Shown here in pieces: positions 1-47,118 of a DNA stretch of 64,000 bases. The notes beneath the pieces were generated by a model. It was not told the DNA's origin and ran no database searches. It worked only from the letters and a program-made list of their open reading frames with translations. Positions within the stretch are counted from its first letter, which is position 1, and each line of letters starts with the position of its first letter. The translations under genes and the position numbers were made by a program. Where the stretch lies: positions 2,170,001 to 2,234,000 of the forward strand of contig NZ_OY986431.1 of the NCBI RefSeq assembly GCF_963920485.1, in the 5' to 3' direction. Source of the stretch: Cyanobium usitatum str. Tous (GTDB taxonomy: Bacteria > Cyanobacteriota > Cyanobacteriia > PCC-6307 > Cyanobiaceae).

Positions 1-134
1 CCTTGCTAAGGCAAACTTCTTAGCCCGGAACGCCGTCGCAGGGCCGTTGTGGTTCTGTAGGAGCGTTACCGGGCCCAACAGCGTTCTCACCCATCTGGAG
101 GCATCAGTTGAACCGCGTCTACCGGTCAACCTGA

Positions 135-765: not shown

Positions 766-1265
766 TAAAAGGCACCCACCTCATTGTGCAACAACTGATT
801 GAAGAACTCCGGGCAACTGATCTTGAGAAGGCAGTGATTTCCTCGGAGGATTTCGAGTACTTATCGCAATACCCAAAGATCCTGAAGGGATTTGTCAGCT
901 CGTTGCGCGAAGACGGCTTCGATCCGGTTTTCATCGTCTTCTTCAGGGAGCGCCATGCATACCTCACAAGTCTTGCCGCCGCCCTAGCCAATCATGGCGC
1001 GACGCACGCGATGAAATGGTACAGGGAGTAACTGGCAGTTCACGATGCAATCCTTGTGAAAAAGGATTGGTATTTTGATTTTAACCGAGACCGATTCGTT
1101 TCACTTCTAAACGATATAACCAATGCCGAGCTAATCGAGCTTGTCTATGACGCATGTGTGAGGGGAGCAGGGTTTTTATCGATGTTCCTTGAAACGCTGG
1201 GCGCGAGCGAAGCCATGATCCTACGTGCCCGAACCTGGCCTCGAATGTATGTCCGCCAGTCTTGA
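745..1265 (+). pseudogene. sulfotransferase-like gene fragment, fused behind the IS3 relic
   Basis: The frame that ends the IS3 OrfB relic runs on without a stop into unrelated protein: ...LIEELRATDLEKAVISSEDFEYLS, then VFIVFFRERHAYLTSLAAALANHG. This matches the middle of the sulfotransferase-like proteins of this island (compare LLISSEFLSL and LVERELRSRAASHYNQAV in the copy at 7683-8456). A TAA at 1029-1031 interrupts it; beyond that the same frame continues with DWYFDFNRDRFVSLLND to 1265. The N-terminal sulfate-donor loop is absent. I read it as the decayed remainder of a sulfotransferase-type gene whose 5' end was replaced by an IS3 insertion. From 1266 to 1503 I see no gene. Confidence 0.5.
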
Positions 1266-1503
1266 GCTCGTTAGCTACGATGAATTGCCGTTTCTCCGAA
1301 GAGGCTGTTGATAGTAATTTCTGATTGATGCAACCCTTTAGAGTTTGACGTCAAGTTGGCAGAGCAATGGCTTGAATCAGCCTGGGGCTGCTTTGAGCAA
1401 GCGGTTTTCTCGCAATGGTTGCCTGGCCGCACTAAGCCCCCCAAGCTGAGAGCTCTGAACTAAATGTTGCCCAGAGAATGCTCATTGGAATAACGTATCA
1501 AGG

Positions 1504-2037
1504 TCAACCCATAAGCTCAAGCAAATCGGGGCCAGAAGGCATAAATGCTGGCCGAATGGTTTTAACGAGCTCGTTACGCCGATCAATCCGCTCCTGCGGA
1601 TCCAGCACCGTTCGATTCACCTCCAACATGGCCATCAGCAACGCTGCGCTCATCGACGTATTAGTCCACGGGATCTGATCAGGTAGTTCTCCGTCTATCG
1701 CGCCGGCTACCTTGAGCAGTCTCTGCACCAAGCTTTCTGCAGGCTCATAGGCCAACACCTCCACCCGGGCACCAACAGCTTTCAGATCCTCAATCATGGG
1801 CTCGATCCTGAGTTTGGCCTCTTCCTCCTTCAGCCACTGCTGCGGGCTGCGGGTTTCACCCACATAGGGGTCCTTCACCGCCTGGTTGTAGAGCGAGGCT
1901 GCCATGCTGCGCAGCTCCCGCTCCACCAGCCAGGGCCCCACTACCTCCATCTCAGAGAGAAACTTCTCAAGCTTGGTCTGCTTATTGACGGTGGTGAGCT
2001 CGTAATCCGGAAAGCCGGGCTGCTTGCCGCCCACCAA
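1504..2037 (-). pseudogene. sulfotransferase C-terminal half fused to an IS5 transposase start
   Basis: The last ~140 residues (from LVERELRS on) closely match the C-terminal half of the intact protein at 7683-8456: shared blocks include NQAVKDPYVGETRSPQQWLK, EVLAYEPAESLV and DGELPDQIPWTNTSMS. The first ~36 residues are different and look like the N-terminus of an IS5-type transposase (PDYELTTVNKQTKLEKFLSEME). The join is in frame, so an open frame of 177 codons exists, but it lacks the N-terminal phosphosulfate-binding loop (GPHKTGTS in the intact copy). Best read as a pseudogene made by an insertion or deletion event. A translated chimera cannot be excluded. Confidence 0.7.
1550..1937 (-). 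repeat. direct repeat copy A (sulfotransferase 3' half)
   Basis: This segment repeats 7735-8105 in the same orientation. By hand alignment about four fifths of the encoded residues are identical, and long nucleotide blocks are shared, for example around 1825-1895 and 8000-8070. Homology ends abruptly near 1937 at the IS5-like remnant. The two copies bracket the sulfotransferase / aminotransferase / acyltransferase / glycosyltransferase cassette. Confidence 0.8.
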
Positions 2038-2045
2038 CCCAGTCT
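1938..2045 (-). mobile_element. IS5-family transposase N-terminal remnant
   Basis: The minus-strand translation GGKQPGFPDYELTTVNKQ followed by TKLEKFLSEMEVVGPW resembles the conserved opening of IS5-family transposases, which usually reads like TKREKFLAEMEQVVPW and continues into the DDE domain. Here it stops after PW and joins sulfotransferase sequence. The remainder of the element and its terminal repeats are not recognisable. The identification rests on memory of the family and one short block. Confidence 0.5.
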
Positions 2046-2108
2046 TGGAGTGTGATCACAATGCCATTGGCCCGGAGATAGCCTGGGCTTTACAGAGCTT
2101 CAATAGCG

Positions 2109-2759
2109 TCAGGAGCCGCGATTTTCCCAGGGAAAAAAGGGGCGTAGCGGTGTTTTCCCTAGAAATTTGCAGAACCGTTGATATGAAGCCTTAGTGGCCA
2201 AATCAACTGTCAGAAGATCTGCGGAGCGACCACTGAAATACTCTTGCACACTGGCAATGTGTGACTCATAGGCTCGAATCAGGCACTTTTTATTGTAAGG
2301 ATCTCCCGCCGGATAAGCATATATTGTCCGCATCGCGAAGAGCACCCATCCTCTGTAACAGTAGTCAGCACGTGCCAAGTCGTCTTCCGTAGGCATTTTC
2401 CCTCCGCCAAATAGCTTAGAGTGAAAAACCACCAGCGAGTGATACCACATCTCGGAGTTTGCGCGAATTGTCAATATAAACTTGCTGCCTGGAAACGACG
2501 CATCAAGCGTTTGGTAGGTGTAAGGAAGGCTGAAGGGAATATCCTGGAATGCATCGGCTGTTTGGCAGAAGTCGGAGATGCGAGAAAAGTCGCGACGAGC
2601 CCAGTCGGTGATAAAGAGCTCTGCCACAGGCTGGCTTGCAACCCGATACCCAAGTTCTTCGAGAGCGACACGAACTGAGGTGGTTCCAGTCTTGTTAAAA
2701 CCTATGCAAAAGACTTTACCTTCTCGTGATTGGACAGGAAGTTGCATGGGATGGGGCAT
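2109..2759 (-). CDS. sulfotransferase family protein
   Basis: A 216-residue protein with the 5'-phosphosulfate-binding loop near its start (KVFCIGFNKTGTTSV) and a FPGSKFILTIRANSEMWYHSL segment matching the 3'-phosphate-binding region of small P-loop sulfotransferases, although the usual RD of that motif is RA here. Expected to transfer sulfate from PAPS to a hydroxyl or amine of a glycan or small molecule; the acceptor is unknown. I start at the ATG at 2759 because the open frame upstream to 2876 does not look like family sequence; an ATG at 2747 is an alternative. It sits alone in the low-GC island between IS relics, next to sugar-modifying genes on the other strand. Confidence 0.75.
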   Translation of the reverse strand: MPHPMQLPVQSREGKVFCIGFNKTGTTSVRVALEELGYRVASQPVAELFITDWARRDFSRISDFCQTADAFQDIPFSLPYTYQTLDASFPGSKFILTIRANSEMWYHSLVVFHSKLFGGGKMPTEDDLARADYCYRGWVLFAMRTIYAYPAGDPYNKKCLIRAYESHIASVQEYFSGRSADLLTVDLATKASYQRFCKFLGKTPLRPFFPWENRGS

Positions 2760-2954
2760 TGTAGATTTCTCAGTGCGGCATTCACCAGGCACCGAAGGCC
2801 AGTTTCGGGGAAGTGGAACAGCGGTAAAAGCGTGCAATCCCTGAGTAGCAACAAACAAATAGGGACCCGAGATCAAGCACCACGATCAGGTGAAACCTCT
2901 CGTCAGCAACTGCTCCTTGCATCTACGAGGGGCAGCCGAGTGGGCCGGAGGCCA

Positions 2955-3090
2955 AAGTGCGCTGCCACAAAACTATAAAGTTCTTCTCCCCCCTGAGCTC
3001 GCGGTTTTCATTGCGGTGCTGGGCCAGCTCGGCTCTTTGATCGCTGTTGAGATGACCCAGTTGTTCATGGGAGTCAAAGACCGCAGCCGA
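2955..3090 (-). mobile_element. probable IS3-family OrfA relic
   Basis: Minus-strand translation of about 2955-3090 reads LGHLNSDQRAELAQHRNENR then ELRGEKNF, which resembles the leucine-zipper part of IS3 OrfA proteins (typically ...ERAELAQLRRENRELREERD...). No start, helix-turn-helix or OrfB is attached. The rest of the gap from 2760 to 3383 shows no supportable gene. Confidence 0.45.
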
Positions 3091-3383
3091 TGCGGACCTG
3101 ACTCAGTTACCAAACCACGCTACCATTGTCCATTCCCAGCTGTAAAGACAAATCAGTGCGGCCGAGGTCTAGTGCGAGGAAGATCTCAACAGAATCCTGC
3201 CTTTGCGCGCTGTGAACCGGCACCGTATCTTTGACGGGTTAGTCATCAATGGAAAGTCTAAAGGTAATGACATAACTCCTATCGACCTTTCCACGAAGCC
3301 GGTGTATCAACATGCAATATACATGTATTGGCGAATTAGTTTCAATCTACGGTTTAAAGTGAACAAGCCTGCGGGTATCCCCG

Positions 3384-4490
3384 ATGAAATTCCCGATCAT
3401 TCGGCCAAATATTCCCCCCGTCAAAGCCTGGGCTGGTTATCTTGAAGAAGCATATGATTCGCGGCGGTTTTCCAACTACGGACCACTTTCCCGTCGCCTT
3501 GAGTCCTGGCTCGCCATGGAATGGGGCCAGGATTGTACAACTTGCGTTCTTACATCAAGCGGCACCGCAGCGGTTGCTGCTCCGCTCATTGCCAGCGGGA
3601 TATCTGGCAGAGTCTTGCTGCCAGCCTTCACGTTCCCCGCTACTTACTCCGCCATCAAAATGGCAGGCGCTAAGCCGGTTCTCATAGACGTGTGCCCAGC
3701 CGATTGGCGAGTCTCCGCAGATGCCCTGGATGATGCCTTTGCAGCCACAGGTGCACAAGCGGCTATCGTCGTAAGCCCGTTCGGGCTACGGTCTGATTTT
3801 TCCACACACGCGAGAATTGCTTCTAGGCACGGAGCCATCCTGATCATCGATAATGCCGCAGGTCTCGGCGTTACACGCGTTCCCCTGGAGTCGTCAGATA
3901 ATGTGTTCGAGGCATATTCGCTGCACGCTACGAAACCATTTGGGATCGGCGAAGGTGGTGCAATTTTTGCCAACCATTCATCTGAAACGGCACTTCGGAG
4001 GGCGCTTAACTTTGGCCTACCTGCCTCTGTGGCCGAGGAGTCGCCGGCGTGGGGAATCAACGGCAAGATTTCCGAGTTCCATGCTGCAGTCGGCTTGGCG
4101 GTGGCATCCGTTTTCATAGACCATCTCAGAGCCCGTCGTGCCATGGCAGCCCTCTACGCCGTTGCACTCGCAGACTTTCCGGAGGTGCGCTGCTGTATTG
4201 AATTGGACGATAGCGCCTGGCAGGTTTTTCCCCTGCTGCTCCCCACCCGTGAAGCGGCAGATTCATTTGAAGAGCACACTCGCCATCATGGGGTGGAAAT
4301 TCGACGCTATTACAGCCCTTCGTTGTCTTCATACGCCTCAATTGAAAGAATGGCAAAATGCCATGTTTCGGAAGACCTGTCGCAACGCATGTGCTGCCTC
4401 CCCGTTTATTCAAATGCGAGCAAGGCTGAGGTGGCGGAGATAGTCGCCCATATAGCCTCATCACTTCGCCGGGCACTCCGGCGGATTTGA
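3384..4490 (+). CDS. DegT/DnrJ/EryC1-family PLP sugar aminotransferase
   Basis: A 368-residue type I fold PLP enzyme. Visible features are the N-terminal IRPNIPPVKAW block, TSSGTAAV (residues 57-64, phosphate binding), PAFTFPAT (80-87), Asp156 in IIDNAAGLG (ring-nitrogen contact) and Lys184 in SLHATKPFGIGEGGA (Schiff-base lysine). Length and motifs agree with enzymes that convert nucleotide-activated keto-sugars into amino sugars (VioA/FdtB-like), using glutamate as the usual amino donor. The acyltransferase at 5404 could then acylate the new amine. Lower GC than the core genes points to transfer. The ATG at 3384 fits the family N-terminus. The exact sugar cannot be read from sequence. Confidence 0.85.
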   Translation: MKFPIIRPNIPPVKAWAGYLEEAYDSRRFSNYGPLSRRLESWLAMEWGQDCTTCVLTSSGTAAVAAPLIASGISGRVLLPAFTFPATYSAIKMAGAKPVLIDVCPADWRVSADALDDAFAATGAQAAIVVSPFGLRSDFSTHARIASRHGAILIIDNAAGLGVTRVPLESSDNVFEAYSLHATKPFGIGEGGAIFANHSSETALRRALNFGLPASVAEESPAWGINGKISEFHAAVGLAVASVFIDHLRARRAMAALYAVALADFPEVRCCIELDDSAWQVFPLLLPTREAADSFEEHTRHHGVEIRRYYSPSLSSYASIERMAKCHVSEDLSQRMCCLPVYSNASKAEVAEIVAHIASSLRRALRRI

Positions 4491-4739
4491 GTCATAAACA
4501 TAAAGGCCGACATGATGCTTGCAGTAGTAGAGTCTTTGACGCAAAGACTTTGCAATCAAAAAGCTTCTACGCCGGATCAGGTTGAACAATTGCTACCTTA
4601 AGACTAAACACAGCAGTTGACAATTCTTCGCATTCTACTGTTGGGCTGTGCATGGGCTTTGCGGGTCTTTCAGCTTTAGCCTGGAGAAGGATTAATCAGT
4701 CACTACTATAACGAGAGTCCCAACGCCATGCAGGCGCAA

Positions 4740-5268
4740 CACGATCTTGCGACGTCACCCCGAACACGACTGCCGTGATGGTGGCCATCTTAATTGCCAC
4801 TAGGGATTCGGCATCGCCGACTACTATCCCAAAATATCGCAGTTCATAGCAACCCTACGCGATCCGTTCAAGCGGACTATCTCCCTCTATTTTTATGTGC
4901 GCCAAGGATCTCAACAAGGAGCAAACTGGTGGAAGTCGAGCAAGCCAACTCCGATGACGGGAACTGAATTGTTACCCCAGAAGGAAGAGGGGCTGCTGCC
5001 AACGTTTATCCCGATTTCGCTGACGACAGCCAACTTTAAGGAGGTTATAGAATTCTATTTCGTGCAGGTGGGCATCATAGAAAGCCTGACGAATTGCCGC
5101 GTATAATCCCATAGGCGCACCACTTGCACTACAATTGGCAATGGTATCCTTTGAAGCTGCACCGAAAGTAATCGGGAGGTGCCCAATGAATTGCGTCAGG
5201 ACTTCCCGCGACTCCCCCCGCTCAACCATGCTACCTACAACTACATGGCACAGAAGTTCGACTGTTAA
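4740..5268 (+). pseudogene. sulfotransferase (Sulfotransfer_2-like) pseudogene
   Basis: From about 4780 one frame reads GHLNCH, a TAG at 4801-4803, then GFGIADYYPKISQFIATLRD and PFKRTISLYFYVRQ. This is the ATLRDP..R..S..Y pattern typical of carbohydrate sulfotransferases. It runs on to FVQVGIIESL near 5070-5095 (compare the family's VGI.ErfdeSL) and stops at 5104-5106. In a shifted frame, about 5187-5268, the end of such a protein seems to follow (PRLPPLNHATYNYMAQKF). At least one stop and one frameshift make it a pseudogene. The true 5' end is not found; 4491-4739 shows nothing I can name. Confidence 0.5.
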
Positions 5269-5403
5269 GTGCTTAGTTCGGAGAATGGGCAGTTCGCTGG
5301 ATATCAGTACATAAAACATAAGCGAGGAGCAGCTAGTGAGCCATGTGTCCCTGCAGTCAGGTATTTATTTGCCGTAATCAGGCGCGTCGAGTATTGTCAT
5401 ACA

Positions 5404-6003
5404 ATGAATAGCCAATTTCTTTCTCGAGATCAACTGGAAGAACAGGGGTTCGCCAGCCTCGGCGAGGATGTTCTCCTCCACAGTTCATGCGTGATTGCCG
5501 GTGCGGGTCGGATATCGATTGGATCCCACGTCCGTATCGATCCGTTTTGCATCATCACCATGAGCGGTCACCTGCAGATCGGCTCTAGAGTTCACATTTC
5601 AGGGCACGTAGCAATCCTTGGCCGCGGGCGCATAGAGATCGGGGACTTCTCCGCCATTTCGCACGGGGTAAAAATTCTTTCATCCTCCGACTCCTTCACA
5701 TCGGCAGGTATTGCGGGGCCGATGGTTCCCGAGGAATGTCGGAAAGTGATTTCCGAGCCTGTCATGATTGGGCGCCATGTTGTGCTCGGCGTAAACACGG
5801 TACTTCTGCCGGGTGCAATCATCGGAGAAGGAGCAACCGTCGGTGCACTATCACTGGTGAAAACAAGCATCGAGCCATGGACCGTAAATGCAGGTGTCCC
5901 ATGCCGAGTTATTCAGAAACGCGAGCGTAGCGGCACGCTGGAGTGTGAACGCTTGCTCGTCGAGATAGAAAAGCGAAAAAACGTACCTAATTATTTTCCG
6001 TAG
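5404..6003 (+). CDS. hexapeptide-repeat acyltransferase (amino-sugar N-acyltransferase-like)
   Basis: A 199-residue left-handed beta-helix protein with many [LIV]G-x4 hexapeptide repeats from about residue 30 (RISIGSHVRIDPFCIITMSG, RIEIGDFSAIS, VMIGRHVVLGVNTVLLPGAI) and the closing VGALSLVKTSIEPWTVNAGV segment. The layout resembles acyltransferases that acetylate dTDP-4-amino-4,6-dideoxyglucose (VioB-like), which suits the DegT aminotransferase upstream. I start at the ATG at 5404, which gives the family's N-terminus (MNSQFLSRDQLEEQGFASLG). The open frame reaches back to 5269 but that part is not family-like. The acetyl-CoA donor is inferred from the family. Confidence 0.8.
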   Translation: MNSQFLSRDQLEEQGFASLGEDVLLHSSCVIAGAGRISIGSHVRIDPFCIITMSGHLQIGSRVHISGHVAILGRGRIEIGDFSAISHGVKILSSSDSFTSAGIAGPMVPEECRKVISEPVMIGRHVVLGVNTVLLPGAIIGEGATVGALSLVKTSIEPWTVNAGVPCRVIQKRERSGTLECERLLVEIEKRKNVPNYFP

Positions 6004-6243
6004 CAACGCGAGCTATGGGCGATTGGGCGAGTCGCGTCTTTTCTGCATTGGATAGTTAAAGGCCAAACGGTTGGTGCTTACAACCCACAGAAAGGCATTC
6101 ACTGGACTTAGCGAAAAATGGATGGGGCGAACATCGCGGCTCGGGGCAAACTCCTCACGTTTGTAGGTACGACCGATTGATCTGGGGGAGGCTCGCAGCT
6201 TCAATCGATTCGTGAGCGGTAGTGCGATCTGGCAATACTAGCC

Positions 6244-7218
6244 ATGTTAGCAAAAAGACTCACGAGCTTCAGTTCCAAGCCTCGAGGTTATGATATCCGT
6301 TATCCGGGAGCAAGGAAGGTGAAAGTTGCCGCCATCGTAGGAGTGAAGGACGAAGTGGAACTCATTCAGCCTTGCTTAGAGAGACTTTGGGCCGTAGGTG
6401 TCGGACCTATCCTCGTGCTGGACAATAATTCCTCCGACGGGACCATTGATATCGTGGACCGTCTAAGCAGACATAGTGCTGCTCCGCTCACTCGCACCTC
6501 ATTCAGCCCAGATTTCGATCAGAACTTGCAGGTTGGTGGAGAGGTAATCGACCCTTTCGTTCGTCAACACTCGCCAGACTGGCTGCTGTTCATCGATGCC
6601 GACGAATTTATGGTTTGTGTCAACGATGATCTGCCGGGCGCACTTGCGAACGTTACGGGGCCAGTCCTTTCGATCGAGCGCTACAACGTCCCCTTATCCA
6701 GCGATCCGTTCGTTCCGACGGCCGGTACCGAGGCAAGCGACTTTCTTGGGATTCGCCTCATCACGGGCCGGGAAGATTTAAGCCGTTCGCTTCTCGACGA
6801 GCCCCTCGGCAAGCGCTGGATCATGAATCGGATCATGCCCAAGCTTATTTGCCGGCCCGATCGGGTCTCACGCTACGGCTTAGGATGGCACTCCATTGCA
6901 GATTCAAGGGGCCAACCCATTCCATCAATCGCTGCGAAAGGGTTGTTACTAGTGCACCTGCCGTTAACCACAAATGAACGTTTCGTTCGAAAGGTTAACA
7001 ATGCTCGCGAATTTTTTCGTCACTGCGGGGAACATTATCCCGGTGATGCCGCGTGGCATTGGAAGCGCTGGGTTGATCTCGCGGATCGTGGGCTGCTGGG
7101 TGCCGAATTCGCGGCCCAACGAATGGGCGAGGCTGAGATGGCTCACCTCGCTGATGTGGGGGCAATAGAGCGGGCGGATGCTGTACTGCAGAAGAGTATG
7201 CGAACCCAATCTGGATGA
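6244..7218 (+). CDS. glycosyltransferase family 2-like protein
   Basis: A 324-residue protein with a GT-A type start (VAAIVGVKDEVELIQPCLER), a nucleotide-sugar-binding LDNNSSDGT motif near residues 60-68 and a DADEF metal-binding motif near residue 120. It has no transmembrane segment, so it is likely a cytoplasmic or membrane-associated transferase for a surface glycan. The last few residues and the stop lie inside sequence that, read on the other strand, belongs to the helicase relic. The native C-terminus may therefore have been replaced. Positions 6004-6243 before it hold no gene I can support. Confidence 0.8.
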   Translation: MLAKRLTSFSSKPRGYDIRYPGARKVKVAAIVGVKDEVELIQPCLERLWAVGVGPILVLDNNSSDGTIDIVDRLSRHSAAPLTRTSFSPDFDQNLQVGGEVIDPFVRQHSPDWLLFIDADEFMVCVNDDLPGALANVTGPVLSIERYNVPLSSDPFVPTAGTEASDFLGIRLITGREDLSRSLLDEPLGKRWIMNRIMPKLICRPDRVSRYGLGWHSIADSRGQPIPSIAAKGLLLVHLPLTTNERFVRKVNNAREFFRHCGEHYPGDAAWHWKRWVDLADRGLLGAEFAAQRMGEAEMAHLADVGAIERADAVLQKSMRTQSG

Positions 7219-7567
7219 CGAGGGTGGCCTGGGAAATCGAAGTGGAGGCCTTGGCCTGAATCGGTAGCTTTCCAACCAACTGCTCAAACACGCCGATCCG
7301 ACCCTTGACCGCCATGTGAACGTCGGTCTCCACCGTCCCGTCATGGTGGAGGCTGATGATCTGCATTTGGTCGTGTGTCTGACCGATGCGGTCGATACGA
7401 CCAATGCGCTGCTCCACCCGTATCGGGTTCTAAGGCATGTCGTAGTTGACCAGGGCACTGAGGAACTTGAAGTTCAGACCCTCCGCTGTCGCATCGATGC
7501 AAAGCAGAATCTCAGCATTGTCTGCCTTGAAGTCACGCTTTGCGTCTGGGCTGAAAACCGACTCTGA
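7205..7567 (-). pseudogene. SNF2/superfamily 2 helicase C-terminal relic
   Basis: Minus-strand translation gives AEILLCIDATAEGLNFKFLS, ALVNYDMP, a TAG (7433-7435) where a Trp codon is expected, NPIRVEQRIGRIDRIGQTHD, then a TVETDVHM...GRIGVFEQLVGKL tail. These are helicase motifs V and VI of an SNF2-type ATPase; the arginine-rich QRIGRIDRIGQ block is diagnostic. Only about 120 codons survive, with no ATPase motif I or II. Such helicases occur in DNA repair, chromatin-like remodelling and some phage-defence systems, but this remnant does not say which. Confidence 0.8.
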
Positions 7568-7682
7568 ATTATTTAAACGCGTAATCGCATACATGTTGCA
7601 AGCGTTCCAGAATGGCAGTCTTTAATGCACCCTCGGAACGTGCCTCCAAAGTTGATCAAGCCCAAGGTGACTGCCGCATGCC

Positions 7683-8456
7683 TTAATGACCAGAGAATAA
7701 ATCTGGAGACGACGCTAAAAAAGCAGGTGAAATAGTCGCAAACAACGCATTGCGGCGTATCTGTCGCTCCTGCGGATCACGCACCGTTCGATTCACCTCC
7801 AGCAGCGCCATCAGCACCGCTTCGCTCATCGACGTATTGGTCCACGGAATCTGATCCGGCAATTCCCCATCTATGGCACCAGCTACCTTGAGCGCCCTGT
7901 GCACCAAGCTTTCTGCTGGCTCATAGGCCAACACCTCTACCCCCAACCCTGCAGCTTCCAGATCCTCAATCATGGGCTCAAACCTGAGTTTGGCCTCTTC
8001 CTCCTTCAGCCACTGCTGCGGGCTGCGGGTTTCACCCACATAGGGGTCCTTCACCGCCTGGTTGTAGTGCGAGGCTGCCCTGCTGCGCAGCTCCCGCTCC
8101 ACCAGCAACGCCCTGATCCCGTCTGGCTGGGCAATGCCCTGCTCCACCAGCCAGGCCACCACCCGGGCCGCACAGCCCAGGCTGAGGAATTCGCTGCTGA
8201 TCAGCAGCGTGTCGTGCTGCACCTCAGCCAGTTCCGCTTGGAGCTGCTCGAGCAGCAGCTCGGGCTCCAGCGCCTCGGCATCCGGGCGCCGCAGCTCCGG
8301 GATCAGGCTGAACACCAGATTGTGATGAGCACCATCAGGCCACTGCCCCGTGCGGGGGTAATAAAACGCTGAAAACGACTGCTGCCGCAGCACCGCCTGA
8401 AGCGCGCTGGTGCCCGTCTTGTGGGGGCCGGCATGCAGGATCAGGCGGCGGGGCAT
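7683..8456 (-). CDS. sulfotransferase family protein (intact paralogue)
   Basis: A 257-residue protein that opens with a P-loop-like phosphosulfate-binding motif (LILHAGPHKTGTSALQ, residues 5-20), followed by LLISSEFLSL near residue 85 and LVERELRSRAASHYNQAV near 120. Its C-terminal half (from about 8105 downward) is duplicated at 1504-1937, and its middle resembles the relic at 745-1265. The ATG at 8456 lies just before the loop, as is usual. It should use PAPS; the acceptor is unknown. Proteins of this type are common in marine picocyanobacterial surface-polysaccharide islands. Confidence 0.75.
   Translation of the reverse strand: MPRRLILHAGPHKTGTSALQAVLRQQSFSAFYYPRTGQWPDGAHHNLVFSLIPELRRPDAEALEPELLLEQLQAELAEVQHDTLLISSEFLSLGCAARVVAWLVEQGIAQPDGIRALLVERELRSRAASHYNQAVKDPYVGETRSPQQWLKEEEAKLRFEPMIEDLEAAGLGVEVLAYEPAESLVHRALKVAGAIDGELPDQIPWTNTSMSEAVLMALLEVNRTVRDPQERQIRRNALFATISPAFLASSPDLFSGH
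7735..8105 (-). repeat. direct repeat copy B (sulfotransferase 3' half)
   Basis: Partner of 1550-1937, in the same orientation and about 6.2 kb away. This copy is part of the intact gene, so it is the likely source or the better-preserved sister of copy A. Confidence 0.8.
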
Positions 8457-8774
8457 CGGTTAGGGCTTGGGTTCCCCAGTTTGGCTGAGCTGGGAGGCAC
8501 CTGCTCTCAGCTGGGTAGCGCCGGCAGTCGCATCGCCTCCAGTGTCGGCATTAGCTCAGTGGGCTTTTCCACCAGCGCTCACTCAGGCCGGGCCAGCAGC
8601 AGCCCCGATCGGCTGCCAGCCGCCAGGGGTAGCCCGTCGGTGATTGCTGCATATCCAGCGTGAACTGCCTCTGCTGCTTGAGCTGCTCCCAGGTTGCGCA
8701 GCTGGAGGCGCCAGAGGGTTGGCGAGGGGGGTCTGGGTCGTGCTGGGTGGCTGTTTTGTGTGGGTTGGTGGGCC
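8457..8774. other. intergenic stretch without a recognisable gene
   Basis: Between the divergent sulfotransferase and DUF2887 genes. The longest open frames here look like shadows with no recognisable family sequence. No clear hairpin terminator or tRNA is seen. Confidence 0.4.
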
Positions 8775-9236
8775 TTGAAAACCGATCACTGGTTCTACGG
8801 GCTGTTCCAGAGCGCGCCGGATCTGATCGCCTTGCTGTTGCCGCAGGGTGCCTCTGCGGTGCCTGAGCTCGGGCCTGATTCTCCTGGGGATGCGCTCTAT
8901 CGCTTTGAGGCGCCTGAACTCAAAGCCGCAAGCCACCGGCTTGATGGGGCGTTTTGGCCCAGAAGCGGGGAGGCCGGCACGCTGGAGCAACCGGTGGTGC
9001 TGCTGGAGGTGCAGATGCGCAGCAAGCCAGGTTTCAAGCACCGCCTTGGCACCCAGAGCTTTCGCTTTCTCCAGATCCAGCCTCGGGTACACCGCCTGGC
9101 CGTGGTCTTGGTGGTGCCCCAGCGGCGTGATGGTGCTCGAGCACATGGGCTGACAAGAGGCCGACGCCGTGATCCGCCACTGCGGGGGGTGAAGGAGACT
9201 GGGGGCGCAGTCAGCACGTCTACACGCATCAACTGA
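8775..9236 (+). pseudogene. DUF2887 / Rpn-like nuclease-family protein, truncated
   Basis: From the TTG at 8775 the translation KTDHWFYGLFQSAPDLIALL and then YRFEAPELKAASHRLDGAFWP and VVLLEVQMRSKPGFKHRLG match the N-terminus of cyanobacterial DUF2887 proteins, thought to be PD-(D/E)XK-type proteins related to recombination-promoting Rpn. The E-x-Q (EVQ) with upstream Asp fits a nuclease core. After VVPQRR the sequence stops resembling the family and ends at 9236 after about 153 codons, whereas full proteins run to about 250 or more. I read this as a frameshifted or truncated relic; a start at the ATG at 8694 is less likely. Confidence 0.65.
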
Positions 9237-9271
9237 TGACTAGGCTGATGCAGGCTTGGTTCTTCTGATCG

Positions 9272-9466
9272 ATGCGCACCACCGTGACCCTGGACGCGCA
9301 GCTACTGGCCCAGGCCCAACAGCTGTGCGGCGACCTGGAGCGCAGCGCGCTGCTCAAGGAAGCGTTGCAGGCCCTGGTGCAGCGGGAAAGCGCGCGCAGG
9401 CTGGCCGCCCTGGGCGGCAGCCAACCGGATCTCGCCCCCATCCCGCGTCGCCGGAGCACGGCTTGA
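9272..9466 (+). CDS. vapB: VapB-type antitoxin
   Basis: A 64-residue protein with a ribbon-helix-helix-like N-terminus (MRTTVTLDAQLLAQAQQLCG, then ERSALLKEALQALVQRE) and a basic, Pro-rich tail, as in VapB antitoxins of the RHH type. It lies directly upstream of, and overlaps by 4 nt, a PIN-domain toxin. The usual role is to bind and inhibit the toxin and to repress the operon promoter, which would lie in the short space before 9272. Confidence 0.8.
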   Translation: MRTTVTLDAQLLAQAQQLCGDLERSALLKEALQALVQRESARRLAALGGSQPDLAPIPRRRSTA

Positions 9467-9834
9467 TTCTCGTTGACACCTCCGTGTGGGTGGACCACCT
9501 GCGCACCGGCTTACCGCAGCTCGAGGCCGCGCTCCAAGAGAATGATGTGGTGATGCATCCCTGGGTGATCGGCGAACTCGCGTGCGGCAACCCCCGCCAT
9601 CGCGCGCAGGTGCTGCAGCTGCTGCAGGGCCTGCCGAAGGCAACCGTGGCGAGCGATGGGGAGGTGTTGCTCCTGATCGAGCAGGAGCAGCTGATGGGGC
9701 GTGGGATCGGCTTCATCGACGCCCACCTGCTGGCCTCCGCACGACTGTCGGGCTGCTGGCTCTGGACCGGTGATCGTCGGCTGGGCGTCCTAGCCAAGGA
9801 TCTGGGTGTGGCGGCGCCAGACTGCCCGCCATGA
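9463..9834 (+). CDS. vapC: VapC-type PIN-domain toxin (ribonuclease)
   Basis: A 123-residue protein if started at the TTG at 9463, which overlaps the antitoxin stop (TTGA). PIN-domain acidic residues are visible: Asp5 in VDTSVWVDHL, Glu in VIGELACG, Asp in GIGFIDAHLLASA and the closing WTGDRRLG. VapC proteins are Mg-dependent RNases that cut initiator tRNA or rRNA when released from VapB. The gene end overlaps the glcF start by ATGA, so a toxin-antitoxin module is translationally joined to a metabolic gene. The open frame extends upstream to 9256, but that part is the antitoxin in another frame. Confidence 0.85.
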   Translation: MILVDTSVWVDHLRTGLPQLEAALQENDVVMHPWVIGELACGNPRHRAQVLQLLQGLPKATVASDGEVLLLIEQEQLMGRGIGFIDAHLLASARLSGCWLWTGDRRLGVLAKDLGVAAPDCPP

Positions 9835-14678: not shown

Positions 14679-14726
14679 CTTGATGTGTCCAGGGTGGTTG
14701 ATGCTAGGTAGATCTGCGGCGCGCCA

Positions 14727-15041
14727 TTGCCCCTCACCAGCCCTGACTGGAGCCCCTTCCTGCCGGGGATCGCCCTGTGGGCCCTAGCCCTTTACCTCCC
14801 CTTGAGCGGCCCCTTGGGGCGCCTGGAGGAAGCACTTGCCTCAGGCTCCCTGCCGAGCACTTTCCAGCAGGTGGTGTTGGTGATTAGCAGCCTGCTGCTG
14901 GCCCTGGCCATCGGGGTGCTGGCCGACCTGGGCCTGAGCTGGGCCCTGGGCCCGGACTGGGCCAGCAGCCTCGGCCTGATCGCCGCAGGCTGGGGGCTGT
15001 TCACAGCGCTCGCCAGTCGAGCCAGGGAAGACGGGGAATGA
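14727..15041 (+). CDS. small hydrophobic membrane protein, conserved hypothetical
   Basis: A 104-residue protein with about three hydrophobic stretches (FLPGIALWALALYLPL, QVVLVISSLLLALAIGVLA, LGLIAAGWGLFTALA). It starts at a TTG at 14727 in the short gap divergent from the hydrolase. I do not recognise a family. Its last 41 nt overlap the opposing methyltransferase-like gene. The high content of hydrophobic segments and clean frame support a real gene, but no function can be given. Confidence 0.55.
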   Translation: MPLTSPDWSPFLPGIALWALALYLPLSGPLGRLEEALASGSLPSTFQQVVLVISSLLLALAIGVLADLGLSWALGPDWASSLGLIAAGWGLFTALASRAREDGE

Positions 15042-15567
15042 TTGCCGGTGTGCGGGCCCGGTAGGTGGCGTAATCGGGATGGGCAAGCTCAAGGGCCCGC
15101 TCCTCGCGGCGCGCCTTACCGCCGAGCACGGCCACCAGGGCCAGCAGCAAGGCCAGATGCAGCAGGCTGCCCAGGGCCAAGCTCACCCCCAGCGAACAAA
15201 GCAGCACCGCTTGATAGAGGGGGTGACGGCAACGGCCGTAGGCCCCGCTTGTCACCAATGGGGCGCCAGGGATCGGATCAGGCAGGGGCGTAAGGCTGGA
15301 GCCCAGCCCCCAGAACGCCTGAGCCGCCAAGATCAAGCCCAGCAGCAGCAAAACGGCACCGGCCAGGGCTATCGGCAGGGGCCAGGCATAACCCCAGGCG
15401 CCGGGGGCAGGCCAGGGCGGCAGCAGGTGGGCGGCAATCAGGGCCAACTGGGCGAGCAGCCACCACTCACCGTGGCGGTTGTCTAGCCAGCCCCCCCAAC
15501 TCAGGCCCCAGCGCTCAGGTTGGAATTTCGGCAAGTGGATCAAGATCCGGACCTCCAGCGCTGCCAC
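15001..15567 (-). CDS. isoprenylcysteine carboxyl methyltransferase-like membrane protein
   Basis: A 188-residue integral membrane protein with four to five hydrophobic helices and the ICMT/phospholipid N-methyltransferase signature near the C-terminus: LVTSGAYGRCRHPLYQAVLL (SAM-binding RHPxY), then EERALELAHPDYATYRARTP. Probably methylates a lipid or small molecule with SAM; bacterial members are rarely characterised. The 5' end overlaps the antiporter gene by 53 nt in the same direction; a GTG at 15552 is an alternative start. Confidence 0.75.
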   Translation of the reverse strand: MAALEVRILIHLPKFQPERWGLSWGGWLDNRHGEWWLLAQLALIAAHLLPPWPAPGAWGYAWPLPIALAGAVLLLLGLILAAQAFWGLGSSLTPLPDPIPGAPLVTSGAYGRCRHPLYQAVLLCSLGVSLALGSLLHLALLLALVAVLGGKARREERALELAHPDYATYRARTPAIIPRLPWLDWRAL

Positions 15568-16870
15568 CCAACACCAGTCTGAGCAGGATCGGCGCCAGGA
15601 AGGTGGTGCCGATCACCATCAGCAAGATTGCGGCCTCCAGCGGCTTGGTCAGCAGGCCAGCCTGGGTACCCAGGCCAAGAAAGATCAAGCCCACCTCGCC
15701 GCGGGGCATCATCCCCAAACCGACCACCAAGCGGTTGGTTTTCTCCTTGCTGAAGTAGCTCCAGCCGGTTGCCACCTTGCCGGCAATCGCCACGGTGAGC
15801 AGGAAGGCCGCCACGATCAATCCCTCCCGGTTTTCAGGGTTAAACGGATTGAGCACCGACAGATCCATGCCCGTACCAATCAGCACGAAGAAAATCGTGG
15901 CAAACAGGGCGACTAGGGGCTTAACGGTGTCCTGGATCGCATGGGTGTGCTTAGAAGAGCTAAGAATCAAGCCCGCAGCGAAAGCGCCAAGAGCCGCTTC
16001 CAGGCCGATCGCCTGGGCCACAAAGCAGCAGAGCGACAACACCACGAAGGCCGCCACCACCACTTCGCCAGGGGCCTTGAGCTGGTCGAGCAGCCAGTCG
16101 AACCCAGGAGCAGCAGTGCGGCTTAGGAACAGGGCCGCCGCCACAAACACTCCTGCCGCCGCAACCAACTTCAGGATCGGGCCCACGCTGAAGCCCTCTC
16201 CACCAGCCAGGCTCACCACCACAGCAAGGATCACGATGCCGAGAATGTCGTCGAGTACGGCCGCGCCGATCACCGTCTGACCCTCGCGGGTGCGCAGAAA
16301 CTTCAACTCACCAAACACGCTGGCGGTGATGCCGATGCTGGTGGCAGTCATCGCCGCACCGGCGAAGATCGCTGGAATCAGGGGCACATGGAAGATGTAA
16401 TAAAGGCCCGCAGTGCCTAGGGCAAAAGGAAGCACCACCCCAGTTACGGCAACGGTGGTGGCCTGGGCACCCACCGCTACCAGCTCATCGAGCTCGCTCT
16501 CCAGTCCGGTGAGAAACAACAGGGCAAACAGGCCGATCTGGGAGACCGCCTGCAGATTCGGGAAGGTCTCGGCGTAGATCTCCTGCACCTTTTCCGGTGA
16601 GAGATCGGCCAGAGAACTGAGCAAGCCCAAGCCCCAACTGCTGAGTTGGACCTGGGTTTCGGGCGGCACGATCAAATGCAGGCCGGAAACGCCAATCAGA
16701 ACGCCAGCTACCAGCTCACCCAAAATTGTGGGCAGCTGCACCCGCACCATCAGCTCCGCCAGCAGCCTGGCCGCCACGAAGATCACCAGAAACTCGCCCA
16801 CCGAAATCAGGGTTTCAGCAACTTCGGCTTGGTGACTGCCGATTTCAAGCAAAAGCGCAGGCAGAACCAT
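15515..16870 (-). CDS. nhaS3: cation:proton antiporter (NhaS3-like, CPA2)
   Basis: A 451-residue protein with about 12 membrane segments. Motifs are the N-terminal [14 protein letters not shown], the ion-binding [15 protein letters not shown] and [14 protein letters not shown] (paired Asp typical of Na/H antiporters), and [13 protein letters not shown] near the end. It resembles cyanobacterial NhaS3, which exchanges Na+ (or K+) for H+ at the thylakoid or plasma membrane. I start at the ATG at 16870, which gives a normal N-terminus ([14 protein letters not shown]); the open frame runs 18 codons further upstream. Confidence 0.85.
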
Positions 16871-17001
16871 GGAGAGGTGGGTGCGCGGTAGTGGGAGGCG
16901 CGACCTTAAAGCCGCCCGCGCCAAGGTGTTTGGACCCTGCTCTCTATTCGGGCGTGGGGAAGAGGTTTGGCAACCATCGCTACGGTCTGAATATTGATTT
17001 G

Positions 17002-19397
17002 ATGACGCGGGCGATGGCAGAGCAACTGCAGCGTCTTGATGCCTGGTGGCGGGCCGCCAACTACTTAGCGGTGGGGATGATCTACCTGCAGGACAATCCC
17101 CTGCTGGCCGAACCGCTGCAGCCCGCTCACTTCAAAAGTCGGCTACTGGGGCACTGGGGCTCGAGCCCGGGTCAATCCTTCATCTGGGCCCATGCCAACC
17201 GGATGATCCGGTCCCACGACCTCGACATGATTTATCTGTCGGGCCCGGGCCATGGCGCCCCTGGGGTACTGGCACCCACCTACCTCGATGGCTCCTACAG
17301 CGAGATCTATCCCGAAAAGTCGACGGATGCTGCCGGCATGCAGCGCTTCCTTAAGCAGTTTTCCTTCCCCGGCCACATCGGTAGCCACTGCACCCCCGAA
17401 ACCCCTGGCTCGATCCACGAGGGCGGCGAGCTCGGCTACGTGCTCTCCCACGCCTGCGGGGCGGTGTTCGACAACCCCAGCCTGATCGCCCTGGCCTGCG
17501 TCGGCGATGGCGAGGCGGAAACCGGGCCCTTGGCCACCAGCTGGCACATCAACAAGTTCCTCAACCCGCATCCGACGGCGCCGTGCTGCCGGTGCTGCAC
17601 CTCAACGGCTACAAAATCGCCAACCCCACCCTGCTGGCCCGCATCCCCAGAGAGGAGCTCGCCAGCTTGATGCGGGGCTACGGCTGGGAGCCCCTGTTTG
17701 TGGAAGGCAGCGAGCCGATGGCGATGCACCAAGCCATAAACCGCATTCAAGAGGTGCAGGCGGAGGCCCGCCGCAGCGGCGATCCCAGCAACGTCAACCG
17801 GCCCCGTTGGCCCATGATCGTGTTGCGATCTCCAAAGGGCTGGACAGGGCCGGCGGAGCTAAATGGCAAAAAGCTGGAAGGCTTCTGGCGCAGCCACCAG
17901 GTGCCCCTGCCCGATCCCAAGCGAGACCCGGCCCAGCTAAAGCAACTAGAAGCCTGGCTGCATAGCTACCGCCCCGGCGAACTCTTCGATGGGCAGGGCA
18001 GCCTGATCGCCGAGCTGCGGGCCCTCTCGCCGAGTGGCCAGCGCCGCATGGGCTCCAATCCCCATTCCAATGGTGGGCTGCTACGCCGCCGCCTGCACCT
18101 GCCGCCGGTGAATACCTATGCCGTGCCCGTTGAGCAACCGGGCCAACACGAGGCCGAAAACACCGCTCCCCTAGGGGAGCTGCTGCGCGATGCCATTGCC
18201 CTAAACCCCGATTCCGTGCGGGTGTTCGGACCGGATGAAACCGCCTCCAACCGGCTGCAAGCCATCTACGAGGTCAGCAAAAAAGTGTGGATGGAGGAAT
18301 TTCTACCGGAAGACCTCAACGGCAGCGAGCTCTCCCGCAGCGGCCGCGTTGTCGAGATGTTGAGCGAACACACCTTGGTGGGAATGATGGAGGGCTACCT
18401 ACTCACCGGCCGCCATGGTTTTTTCCACACCTATGAGGCCTTCGCCCATGTGATTGCCTAGATGTTCAACCAGCACGCCAAGTGGCTGGAATCCTGCATT
18501 CACCACTCCCCCTGGCGCGCGCCGATTTCCCCCTGGAACTGTCTGATCTCCAGCACCGTGTGGCGCCAAGACCACAACGGCTTCACCCACCAGGATCCTG
18601 GCTTCATCGATCTCGCCGGCAACAAAAGTGGCGAGGTGGTGCGCGTCTATCTGCCGGCCGATGCCAACAGCCTGCTGGCGGTAGCTGAACAGGCGCTACA
18701 GGAAACGAACGTGTGCAACATCATTGTTTCTGACAAACAGAAACACCTGCAATATCTAACTCTGGAGCAGGCCCGGGCCCACGTGGCCAAGGGCATAGGC
18801 CTATGGAGCTGGGCTAGCAACGACGAGTGCGGCACCGAACCAGATGAGCCTGATGTGGTGATGGCCTGCGCGGGCGACATCCCTACTAAGGAAACCCTGG
18901 CCGCAGTTGAAATTCTGCGGCGTGAAATCCCGAACCTAAAAATCCGAGGGCTCAATGTGGTGAAGCTATTTGCTCTCACCACTCCGGGCGAACACCCCCA
19001 CGGCCTCAGCGATCGGGACTTCGACAGCCTGTTGACCACGAATCGACCGGTGATCTTCAATTTTCACGGCTACCCGTGGCTAATCCACCGACTCACCTAC
19101 CACCGCACCAACCACGTCAACTTTCACGTGCGCGGATATAAGAAGAAAGGCAATATCAACACCCCTCTGGAGCTGGCGATGAACAATCAGATCGACCGTT
19201 TCAACTTGGTTATTGATGTGATTGACCGGGTTGCGGGCCTGGGCTCCCGCGCCGCCCACGTCAAAGAGCGCATGAAGGAGGCGATCTTGGCCAACCGGGC
19301 CCACGCCCATGAGCACGGCATGGATGCGGAGGATGTCACCAACTGGCGATGGAACCCACTGCCTGCCGCGGCCCATGCGGGAGAATTACACCAATGA
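17002..19397 (+). pseudogene. xfp: phosphoketolase, interrupted by a frameshift and an in-frame stop
   Basis: Three adjoining frames together make one full phosphoketolase of about 798 codons: residues [20 protein letters not shown] and GPGHGAPG, the TPP motif [15 protein letters not shown], then in a second frame [21 protein letters not shown] through [20 protein letters not shown], then MFNQHAKWLES to the normal end. A single missing G near 17568 (family reads NPASDGAV) shifts the frame, and a TAG at 18459-18461 replaces the Ser of the HVIDSMFNQ motif. The enzyme would split xylulose-5-P or fructose-6-P to acetyl-P. As read, no full-length protein is made unless these are base-call errors. 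The end overlaps glgP by ATGA. Confidence 0.85.
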
Positions 19398-21916
19398 GCG
19401 ACCTCCAACCCAGCAACCTGCGTCTGCCCACCCCGGGCTGCTACGCCGACCCAGATCGCAGTGGCCTGACCGCGGAAAACGTGTTCGACGGCATGACTGA
19501 GCACCTTTTTTACACGCTCGGCAAGCTCGCCCCCACGGCCAGCCGCCACGACCTCTACATGGCCCTCAGCTACGCGGTGCGCGACCGGCTGATGACCCGA
19601 TACCTGGCTGGCATTGAGGCGCTCAGTGCCAGCCCGACTCGAGTGGTGGCCTATCTATCCGCTGAATTTCTGATCGGGCCCCAACTGGGCAACAACCTGT
19701 TGATGCTGGGCATCCAGCAGGAAGCGGCAGAAGCCCTGCGCCGTTTCGGCATCAACGACATCAACGAAATCCTCGATGTTGAGGAGGAGCCTGGCCTGGG
19801 CAACGGAGGCCTGGGTCGACTGGCGGCCTGCTTCCTGGAATCACTGGCCTCGCTGGAAATACCAGCCACCGGCTACGGCATCCGCTACGAATTCGGCATT
19901 TTTGACCAGCTGATCCGCGATGGCTGGCAGGTGGAGATCACCGATAAGTGGCTCAAGAGCGGCTGGCCCTGGGAGCTGCCCCATCCCGATCAAGCCTGCT
20001 TCGTGGGTTTCGGCGGCCACACTGAGAGCTACCGCGATGAGCACGGCACCTACCGGGTTCGCTGGATTCCGGCCGAGCACGCCATTGGCGTTCCCCACGA
20101 CGTACCAGTGCTGGGCTACCGGGTCAACACCTGCGACCGGCTGCGGTTATGGCGAGCCGATGCCGCCGAATCCTTTGACTTCTACGCCTTCAACAGCGGC
20201 GACTATTACGGCGCCGTGGAAGAGAAGGTGGGCTCCGAGACCCTCTCCAAGGTGCTCTATCCCAACGACGGCACGGATGAGGGTCGGCGCCTGCGCCTGA
20301 AGCAGCAGCACTTCTTCGTGAGCTGCTCCCTCCAGGACATGATCCGCAACCTCGATGCCCGCGGCATCCCGATCACGGATTTCCCCGATAACTGGGCGGT
20401 GCAGCTAAATGACACCCACCCGGCCATCGCCGTGGCAGAGCTGATGCGCCTGCTACTCGATGACAAGCACCTGGAATGGGAGGTCGCCTGGAACATCACC
20501 AGTCGCTCCCTTTCTTACACCAATCACACCCTGCTGCCGGAAGCCCTCGAGAAGTGGGGCTTGGGGTTATTTGGCTCCCTGCTACCCCGCCACCTGGAGC
20601 TGATCTACGAGATCAACCGCCGCTTCTTGCAACAGGTGCGCCTCAAATATCCGGGCAACGAGCAGATCCTGCGCAAGGTCTCGATCATCGATGAGGAGGG
20701 CGATAAGGCAGTCCGCATGGCCAATCTGGCCACCGTTGCTTCCCACCACGTCAACGGCGTAGCAGCCCTGCACAGCGAACTGGTCAAAACCGAGCTGTTT
20801 CCTGAATTCGCGGCCCTATGGCCCGAGAAATTCACCAATGTCACCAACGGCGTCACCCCGAGGCGCTGGGTGGCCCTGGCCAATCCCCAGCTGGCGGCCC
20901 TACTGAATGAATCGATTGGCACCGGCTGGATTAACCATCTCGATGAGCTGCGCCGCCTGGAGCAGTTCGTCGATGACAGCAGCTTCCTCGAGCGCTGGGA
21001 AGCCACCAAGCTGGGCGTTAAGGGCCAGCTGAGTAATTACATCCATCGCCACACGGGTGTGCTGGTCGATCCCACCTCCCTATTCGATGTGCAGGTGAAA
21101 CGGATCCACGAATACAAACGCCAGCACCTCAATGCCCTGCAGGTGGTGGCCCAGTACCTGCGCATCAAGAATGGTCAGGCTGAGGGTATGGCCCCGCGCA
21201 CGGTGATCTTCGGCGGCAAGGCAGCACCGGGCTATTACATGGCCAAGCTAATTATTCGTTTCATCAACGGCATCGCCGAAACGATCAACGCCGACCCCGA
21301 CATGGAGGGCCGGCTGCGAGTGATCTTCCTGGCCGACTACAACGTCAAGCTGGGTGAGCGGGTTTACCCCGCCTCCGACCTCTCAGAGCAGATCTCAACT
21401 GCCGGCAAGGAAGCCTCCGGCACCGGCAACATGAAGTTCGCCATGAATGGGGCGCTGACCATCGGCACTCTCGATGGCGCCAACGTGGAAATCCGCGAAC
21501 AGGTGGGTGCCGAGAACTTCTTCCTGTTTGGCAAGACAGCTGAGGAGATCTCCGAGCTGTCCCAGTCGGGTTATCGCCCCTGGGAGCTGATCGGGGGAAT
21601 GCCCGAGTTGGCCGAGATCCTGCGACTGGTGGAGCAGGGCCACTTCAGCAATGGGGATGGCGACCTATTTAGGCCGCTGCTGCAAAACCTCACCGGCCGG
21701 GATCCCTTCTTTGTGCTGGCCGATTTCAACGACTATCTGCGGGCCCAGTCCGAGGTCGACCTGGCCTGGGCCGACAGGGGTCGCTGGAACCGCATGTCGT
21801 TGCTGAATTCAGCCCGCAGTGGCTTCTTCTCTTCAGATCGCTCAATCCGCGACTACGCAGAGCGGATATGGAAAGCCGAGAGCTTCCCGGTCACGATCAC
21901 CTGCGAATTGGACTGA
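19394..21916 (+). CDS. glgP: glycogen phosphorylase
   Basis: An 840-residue GT35 phosphorylase that releases glucose-1-phosphate from glycogen. Visible are NGGLGRLAACFLES, the glucan-site region, KRIHEYKRQHLNALQVV, and the PLP site EASGTGNMKFAMNGALTIGTLDGAN with the Schiff-base Lys in NMKF. The start ATG at 19394 overlaps the phosphoketolase stop, implying coupled expression of glycogen breakdown and the phosphoketolase route. The open frame upstream to 19349 is the phosphoketolase tail in another frame. Confidence 0.95.
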   Translation: MSDLQPSNLRLPTPGCYADPDRSGLTAENVFDGMTEHLFYTLGKLAPTASRHDLYMALSYAVRDRLMTRYLAGIEALSASPTRVVAYLSAEFLIGPQLGNNLLMLGIQQEAAEALRRFGINDINEILDVEEEPGLGNGGLGRLAACFLESLASLEIPATGYGIRYEFGIFDQLIRDGWQVEITDKWLKSGWPWELPHPDQACFVGFGGHTESYRDEHGTYRVRWIPAEHAIGVPHDVPVLGYRVNTCDRLRLWRADAAESFDFYAFNSGDYYGAVEEKVGSETLSKVLYPNDGTDEGRRLRLKQQHFFVSCSLQDMIRNLDARGIPITDFPDNWAVQLNDTHPAIAVAELMRLLLDDKHLEWEVAWNITSRSLSYTNHTLLPEALEKWGLGLFGSLLPRHLELIYEINRRFLQQVRLKYPGNEQILRKVSIIDEEGDKAVRMANLATVASHHVNGVAALHSELVKTELFPEFAALWPEKFTNVTNGVTPRRWVALANPQLAALLNESIGTGWINHLDELRRLEQFVDDSSFLERWEATKLGVKGQLSNYIHRHTGVLVDPTSLFDVQVKRIHEYKRQHLNALQVVAQYLRIKNGQAEGMAPRTVIFGGKAAPGYYMAKLIIRFINGIAETINADPDMEGRLRVIFLADYNVKLGERVYPASDLSEQISTAGKEASGTGNMKFAMNGALTIGTLDGANVEIREQVGAENFFLFGKTAEEISELSQSGYRPWELIGGMPELAEILRLVEQGHFSNGDGDLFRPLLQNLTGRDPFFVLADFNDYLRAQSEVDLAWADRGRWNRMSLLNSARSGFFSSDRSIRDYAERIWKAESFPVTITCELD

Positions 21917-24272: not shown

Positions 24273-24845
24273 ATGGCCGATCAAACCAGCAGCAGCGAGA
24301 TCGCCACTCCTGCCCCCGAAGATCTACTTGTGGTCGGCAAAGTGGTGTCAGCCCAAGGGCTGCAGGGCGAGCTGAGGGTGCTGCCCATGAGCGATTTCCC
24401 GGAGCGCTTCACCCGGGCCGGCCGGCGCTGGTTGCAGCGGCGGGAGGAGGCGCCACGCCAGGTGGAGCTGCTGAGCGGCAGGCAACTGCCAGGCAAGGAG
24501 CTGTTTGTGGTGCGGCTCGCCGCCATCGACAGCCGGGAAGCTGCCGAAGCCCTGGTCGGTGACCAGTTGCTGGTGCCCCTAGCCGACCGCCCCAAGCTGG
24601 CCAAAGGCGAATTTCACCTGCTCGACCTGGTGGGCACCGAAGTGCGGCTGCTGGCGGATCAGCGGCCCATTGGCCGGGTTCGCGACCTGATCCACGCTGG
24701 CAACGACCTGCTGGAGGTGGAACAGGAAACCCCCGATGGCCCGCGGCGACTGCTGATCCCCTTCGTGACAGCGATCGTGCCGGAAGTCCATCTCGAGGAA
24801 GGCTGGATCGGCATCACCCCGCCCCCCGGGCTGCTGGAGCTCTAG
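24273..24845 (+). CDS. rimM: 16S rRNA-processing protein RimM
   Basis: A 190-residue protein with the RimM N-terminal domain ([27 protein letters not shown]) and the PRC-barrel C-terminal domain ([17 protein letters not shown] ... [20 protein letters not shown]). It assists maturation of the 30S head. Start at the ATG at 24273. The divergent ndhS gene begins 53 nt upstream. Confidence 0.92.
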
Positions 24846-24917
24846 GCGACTCTCAGAAGGCAGCCGTTGGCTGGTTAGCCAAAGGTGACCTTGAATGGGC
24901 GCAACCCAGTCCGGTCC

Positions 24918-32339: not shown

Positions 32340-32369
32340 TTCCCAACGGCTGAGCCCTACTTAGCCAGG

Positions 32370-32397
32370 AGCCCCGCCAATCTGGCGGGGCTTTTTT
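32370..32397 (+). terminator. intrinsic terminator after tkt
   Basis: AGCCCCGCCA-ATC-TGGCGGGGCT forms a perfect 10-bp GC-rich stem with a 3-nt loop, followed by TTTTTT. It ends the acpP-fabF-tkt operon ahead of the convergent katG. Confidence 0.92.
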
Positions 32398-32439
32398 AAT
32401 GGAAGCTCAGGAAGGGTGCATCAGGGGTGCAGCCACCGA

Positions 32440-34668
<2,229 letters not shown>

Positions 34669-34733
34669 TTAGAGAGGGCGATCAGGGGCAACCTGCGAGG
34701 GTCACAGTACTTAGCCGCGGCAGCCCGCCTGGC

Positions 34734-36270
<1,537 letters not shown>

Positions 36271-45934: not shown

Positions 45935-45951
45935 GTAGAGGCAACAAAGTC

Positions 45952-46188
45952 ATGGGTCGAGAGGAGCAACGGACTGCCATGCGTCAGGTGCGCGAGGGCC
46001 TGATCGCCGAGCTTGAGGAGCTGTATCGAGGCGCCTTTGATCGCATCGGCAGCCAGGACCTAGGCGAGGGGGCAATCGCCCGACTCACCCAGCTGCTGCT
46101 GCGCTCCCGCGAAGCGGCGATCACGCCGCTGCAGCAGGAGATCGAGGCGCCGGTGATCACCACGCCCGCCGGCCAGCCCACCCCATGA
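45952..46188 (+). CDS. small conserved protein of the hercynine cluster
   Basis: A 78-residue helical protein (MRQVREGLIAELEELYRGAF, then ARLTQLLLRSREAAITPLQQ). I recall small proteins of this kind annotated only as hercynine-metabolism small proteins next to egtBD in marine Synechococcus; that link is from memory. It starts 18 nt after egtD and its stop overlaps the next gene (ATGA), so the four genes look like one operon. Biochemical role unknown. Confidence 0.7.
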   Translation: MGREEQRTAMRQVREGLIAELEELYRGAFDRIGSQDLGEGAIARLTQLLLRSREAAITPLQQEIEAPVITTPAGQPTP

Positions 46189-46649: not shown

Positions 46650-46699
46650 GGATACTTCTCGGTGGGGCTCCTGGGCTGGGCCCTAATTCAGGGTGTGCT

Positions 46700-47075: not shown

Positions 47076-47118
47076 GGAATCGCTGGCCCCCAATGGGGGA
47101 GATTGCCTACTGAAACAA

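Follow-up and report, generated by a model that had tools for sequence, protein, structure and literature searches.

The phosphoketolase gene (xpk) of Cyanobium usitatum str. Tous is very probably a genuine and fairly recent pseudogene, and its decay one event in a recurrent erosion of the xpk-ackA module in the family Cyanobiaceae. It is the only xpk locus found in this genome, since a whole-genome DNA search and an XFP search both returned this locus and no other. The genome is a single closed contig of 2,656,680 bases (about 2.66 Mb), 99.86% complete, and the stretch of 64,000 nucleotides analysed here (the window) covers its bases 2,170,001-2,234,000. In the window, xpk lacks a continuous frame of about 790-806 codons and carries three independent disabling changes: a frameshift around 17565, a 24-nt deletion and an in-frame TAG at 18459. 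Like other bacterial pseudogenes that derive from recent gene loss, it combines a frameshift, a nonsense codon and a short deletion in a gene that is still recognisable and whose close relatives are intact. Nothing sets it apart from them in kind, and its notable aspect is that such decay recurs at a single locus within one family. We therefore file xpk as an ordinary pseudogene, of interest as an early intermediate stage in a loss that has occurred repeatedly.

The phosphoketolase locus and its lesions

The three domains XFP_N, XFP and XFP_C are all detected above the Pfam cut-off in the window, but they are distributed among three ORFs; a single 802-aa protein of the relative L003 contains all of them. 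The Pfam E-values of the three long ORF pieces range from 1e-29 to 1e-96 and, together with the DNA identity of about 95% to intact genes, place the match beyond chance. The intact genes belong to three close relatives of the same genus (G007, G009 and G015), in which xpk has open frames of 861, 806 and 806 aa with no stops and also adjoins glgP, itself intact and free of stops. The start codon common to the three relatives is the ATG at 17014, and in the alignment they lack the ATG at 17002 with which the first-pass annotation had begun the gene (Table 1).

The first lesion is the absence of one base in a run of C (CCC in the window, CCCC in the three relatives), after which the frame is lost from about codon 185. 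The first-pass annotation had placed a missing G near 17568: one base is indeed absent, and it is a C and not a G. The second lesion, an in-frame deletion of 24 nt flanked by GCCAT direct repeats, removes residues 241-248 of the relative. Conservation was judged on 101 distinct orthologs, each less than 94% identical to the reference, and for the six deleted columns that were fully tallied a residue is present in 101/101 of them. The third lesion is a TAG in the place of TCG, the codon of Ser491 in the relatives. The first-pass annotation had recognised this substitution of a serine, which is kept in all 101 of the more distant orthologs; the peptide it expected at the site, HVIDSMFNQ, is read HVIASMFNQ in the relatives. 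The frameshift and the TAG, each of which rests on the deposited consensus sequence, are both missing from the three nearest relatives.

The same annotation had described the coding sequence as otherwise fully conserved, including both ends, and as carrying only two lesions. Neither description stands: the 5' end differs, no fewer than three changes are disruptive, and two further replacements, F682L and E719K, affect residues that are invariant among the orthologs. It was right that a phosphoketolase frame with a one-base frameshift and an in-frame TAG is present, and right that xpk is coupled to a whole glgP.

Table 1. Coordinates of the xpk locus, its neighbours and its lesions in the window
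Feature	Position	Strand	Evidence or remark
xpk pseudogene (phosphoketolase)	17014..19397	+	relatives' common start codon to stop; Pfam pieces, about 95% DNA identity to three orthologs
5' end proposed by the first-pass annotation	17002..17013	+	ATG in none of the three close relatives (alignment)
xpk middle fragment ORF	17583..18461	+	GTG start, 292 aa
xpk C-terminal fragment ORF	18462..19397	+	311 aa; ATG abuts TAG (TAGATG)
glgP, glycogen phosphorylase, intact	19394..21916	+	PF00343; overlaps xpk stop as ATGA at 19394
Divergent sodium/hydrogen exchanger, conserved upstream neighbour of xpk	15515..16924	-	PF00999
Lesion 1: CCC, CCCC in three relatives	17565..17567	+	alignment; tblastn frame change 17565-17568
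Lesion 2: junction of 24-nt in-frame deletion, after 17732	17732..17733	+	alignment; GCCAT direct repeats flank
Lesion 3: TAG, TCG (Ser) in three relatives	18459..18461	+	alignment; Ser491 of relative
F682L	19032..19034	+	F in 101/101 orthologs
E719K	19143..19145	+	E in 101/101 orthologs

Replacements on the window branch were counted codon by codon: 793 codons were compared, and those were scored in which the remaining three close sequences are in agreement. The window branch shows 21 synonymous changes, 8 replacements and 1 stop, and the relatives together 83 synonymous changes and 15 replacements. The ratio of nonsynonymous to synonymous changes is raised on the window branch, but not significantly (8:21 versus 15:83, Fisher p 0.17). 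The replacements of the window fall, in fact, at more conserved sites, with a mean entropy of 0.89 versus 2.09 bits (one-sided p 0.003, two-sided 0.007) when its 8 sites are compared with 13 of the relatives, two tail sites of L005 having been dropped that are gaps in 95/101 orthologs. Fully invariant sites were hit by 2/8 replacements in the window (F682L and E719K) and by 0/15 in the relatives. Since relaxed selection predicts replacements at conserved sites, this shift counts as a sign of it, and the pattern fits an xpk that escaped selection along part of its branch.

Error, recoding or decay

The first-pass annotation had left three options for the broken gene: a very recent inactivation, a base-call problem or an unusual decoding. 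An intact xpk in the organism, with a consensus that contains one or more errors, is very unlikely. The frameshift does sit in a C homopolymer, a typical spot for indel errors, and that indel alone could be an error; a deletion of 24 nt between direct repeats hardly could, and neither this deletion nor the clean change of TCG to TAG is typical of sequencing or assembly errors. A base-call problem could account for the homopolymer frameshift, but not for the deletion nor for replacements shifted to conserved sites, two of which, at invariant residues, accompany the disruptive lesions. The rest of the window also speaks against it. Of 46 ORFs matched between the window and the relatives, two are pieces of xpk, and for 39 of the other 44 a single ORF of a relative aligns with 97% or more of the length. 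Five fall below this coverage; for three ORFs at 45181-47198 the match is no better than 72-83%. For the ORFs 14712-15041 and 38331-39116, the open frames extend further upstream in all three relatives than in the window. Other hits with several frames or in-frame stops, among them those around 24772-24870, 39100-39300 and 55786-55983 and many antisense frames, look on visual inspection like 5' extensions or shadow ORFs. As no well-conserved gene body among the 44 other ORFs is frame-broken in the part of the window common to the relatives, widespread base-calling errors explain the broken gene poorly; a consensus full of errors would not have them gathered in a single gene. An error as the main cause was therefore retained only as a very unlikely rival.

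Even less probable is a working enzyme assembled from fragments that are produced by frameshifting, read-through or re-initiation at GTG 17583 and at the TAGATG of 18459-18464. The three fragment ORFs do adjoin or overlap one another, and glgP is coupled to the final fragment. However, the middle ORF begins past Asp188, which is invariant, and residues 241-248 are missing from it; fragments without these residues are unlikely to make a working split enzyme, and two more invariant residues are replaced. No recoding is needed in the relatives, and TAG is an ordinary stop here, since it ends 5/39 of the conserved window ORFs counted (TGA 28, TAA 6) and also the intact ackA of the same genome. At most, the chain of re-initiation sites (GTG 17583, TAGATG at 18459 and ATGA at 19394) might keep ribosomes flowing into glgP.

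Genuine inactivation, the remaining option, is supported by the further lesions and by the intact relatives. In the ancestor shared with the three nearest species xpk was intact, as their whole frames show, and the window lineage then gained the frameshift, the 24-nt deletion and the stop, plus the replacements at conserved sites. It is unlikely, though less so than a sequencing error or a split enzyme, that this happened in a culture collection under constant light and not in nature. In favour of an origin in culture, deletion of xpk in S. elongatus has no growth effect in constant light or in 12-h cycles, although it carries a growth cost in very rapid light-dark cycles (PMC10365998). Several separate changes, including the replacements at invariant residues, nevertheless suggest a longer relaxed period, and the same loss of xpk is seen in other lineages.

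Recurrent loss of xpk and ackA in Cyanobiaceae

The family was surveyed in 271 Cyanobiaceae genomes at least 90% complete, and a match includes fragments and broken copies. By this measure xpk is present in 116/271 genomes and ackA in 114/271; both genes match in 113, neither in 154, xpk only in 3 and ackA only in 1. All four odd genomes are decayed: the xpk-only genomes (G006, G030 and G239) hold short relics, and the ackA of the ackA-only genome (G094) carries two stops. The near coincidence of the two genes agrees with module 272 (PLoS Genet 2018, PMC5862535), described there as the co-occurrence of phosphoketolase and acetate kinase in cyanobacteria; unlike that module, the genome of the window is intermediate, with xpk broken while ackA is intact.

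A broken or relic xpk adjoins glgP in six lineages: the genome of the window (G000), G005, G006, G010, G239 and G265. They are five without G005, the weakest of the six (an internal deletion, a contig end and a draft 83% complete). The antiporter lies on the other side of the broken gene in G000, G010, G239 and G265, and it is also a neighbour in G014 and G013. G013 is doubtful, having a TAG at a contig end in a genome 82% complete, and G014, at first listed as broken on account of a TGA, has an unbroken tblastn alignment and was counted as intact. Copies that look damaged or partial in G230, G232, G234, G029 and G030 and the second copy of G056 were left out of the count, glgP not being seen to adjoin them in the stretches checked, which cover all of these but G029.

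On a glgP tree of 1440 bases, built from 28 of 36 hand-picked genomes, the broken lineages each stand separate, and a minimum of 7 changes is required for the seven tips that lost xpk, the doubtful G013 among them. The kind of damage to xpk varies among the tips, which makes the losses appear independent. In G094 (L207) the matches of the antiporter and glgP are about 230 bases apart with no xpk match left between them, and the ackA with two stops lies downstream of glgP; this genome is a later stage of the same xpk-ackA loss. Across the family, xpk is broken or deleted while its neighbour glgP stays intact, and ackA is lost with it or afterwards. In the open-licence literature examined, repeated loss of xpk within Cyanobiaceae was not found to have been described.

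In G085 (L188) the order is xpk-glgP-ackA next to the antiporter. This order suggests that an older operon may have joined glycogen breakdown to the acetyl-phosphate route. According to a figure legend in PMC10161378, xfp and ackA share a neighbourhood in freshwater picocyanobacteria.

The acetyl-phosphate route and other features of the window

The intact relatives match the solved phosphoketolase 8io8 (796 aa) with E = 0 over query residues 7-788. We take 8io8 to be SeXPK, which fits the residue numbering. SeXPK is the ATP-sensitive phosphoketolase of Synechococcus elongatus PCC 7942 and, according to PMC10365998, is held off by ATP; when ATP falls, it diverts Calvin-cycle intermediates and so works as a brake. 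PMC10365998 also attributes to the S. elongatus deletion an increased carbon fixation in dense cultures. Of the eight ATP-site residues published there, seven are present in the C-terminal piece of the window; the copy as a whole carries three or more disruptions. The Arg711 of the ATP-binding motif given there is His both in the window (region 19101-19103) and in the intact reference relative, and among the 101 orthologs the position holds 88 Arg and 7 His. This change is not part of the decay, because the same His occurs in the intact relative.

The ackA of the genome lies at 683297-684190, away from xpk, and is intact: it has 370 aa and no stops, ends in TAG and is 96% identical to the acetate kinase of G009. 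The changes unique to it are few and mild; its being intact, with such mild changes, was counted against the pseudogene reading of xpk. Phosphotransacetylase (PF01515) was not found in 16/16 genomes of the genus, and the control search matched in 10/14 reference genomes. With ackA intact, no phosphotransacetylase found and xpk broken, the acetyl-phosphate route would be cut at its first step. The first-pass claim that the lesions abolish the acetyl-phosphate shunt is, given the single xpk locus and these searches, a fair inference. The cell would no longer split xylulose-5-phosphate or fructose-6-phosphate to acetyl phosphate; the Calvin cycle would lose its brake at low ATP, the ATP route through acetyl phosphate and acetate kinase would be off, and acetate kinase would be left without its phosphoketolase-derived substrate.

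A closed-genome strain fresh from the loss of xpk, together with relatives about 95% identical that keep the gene, offers a natural comparison. More tentatively, and with the balance rather against it, loss of the low-ATP brake could be favoured in many picocyanobacteria and not merely tolerated, with the xpk-ackA module repeatedly discarded in a fixed sequence, first xpk and later ackA, and glgP retained. If so, the strain would correspond in nature to the xpk deletion made in the laboratory, fixing more carbon and releasing sugar as overflow.

Elsewhere in the window, positions 1-9700 have a GC content of about 0.53, compared with 0.62-0.68, and no match to the contigs examined of G007, G009 and G015. 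This part contains an integrase-core fragment, a sulfotransferase, a DegT-type aminotransferase, a hexapeptide transferase and a glycosyltransferase, and it looks like an acquired surface-polysaccharide island. A 731-aa protein with a peroxidase domain (PF00141), likely a catalase-peroxidase by prediction, is encoded at 32440-34635 on the minus strand, and the stretch 32342-34750 that holds it has no counterpart in the contigs aligned from the three relatives.
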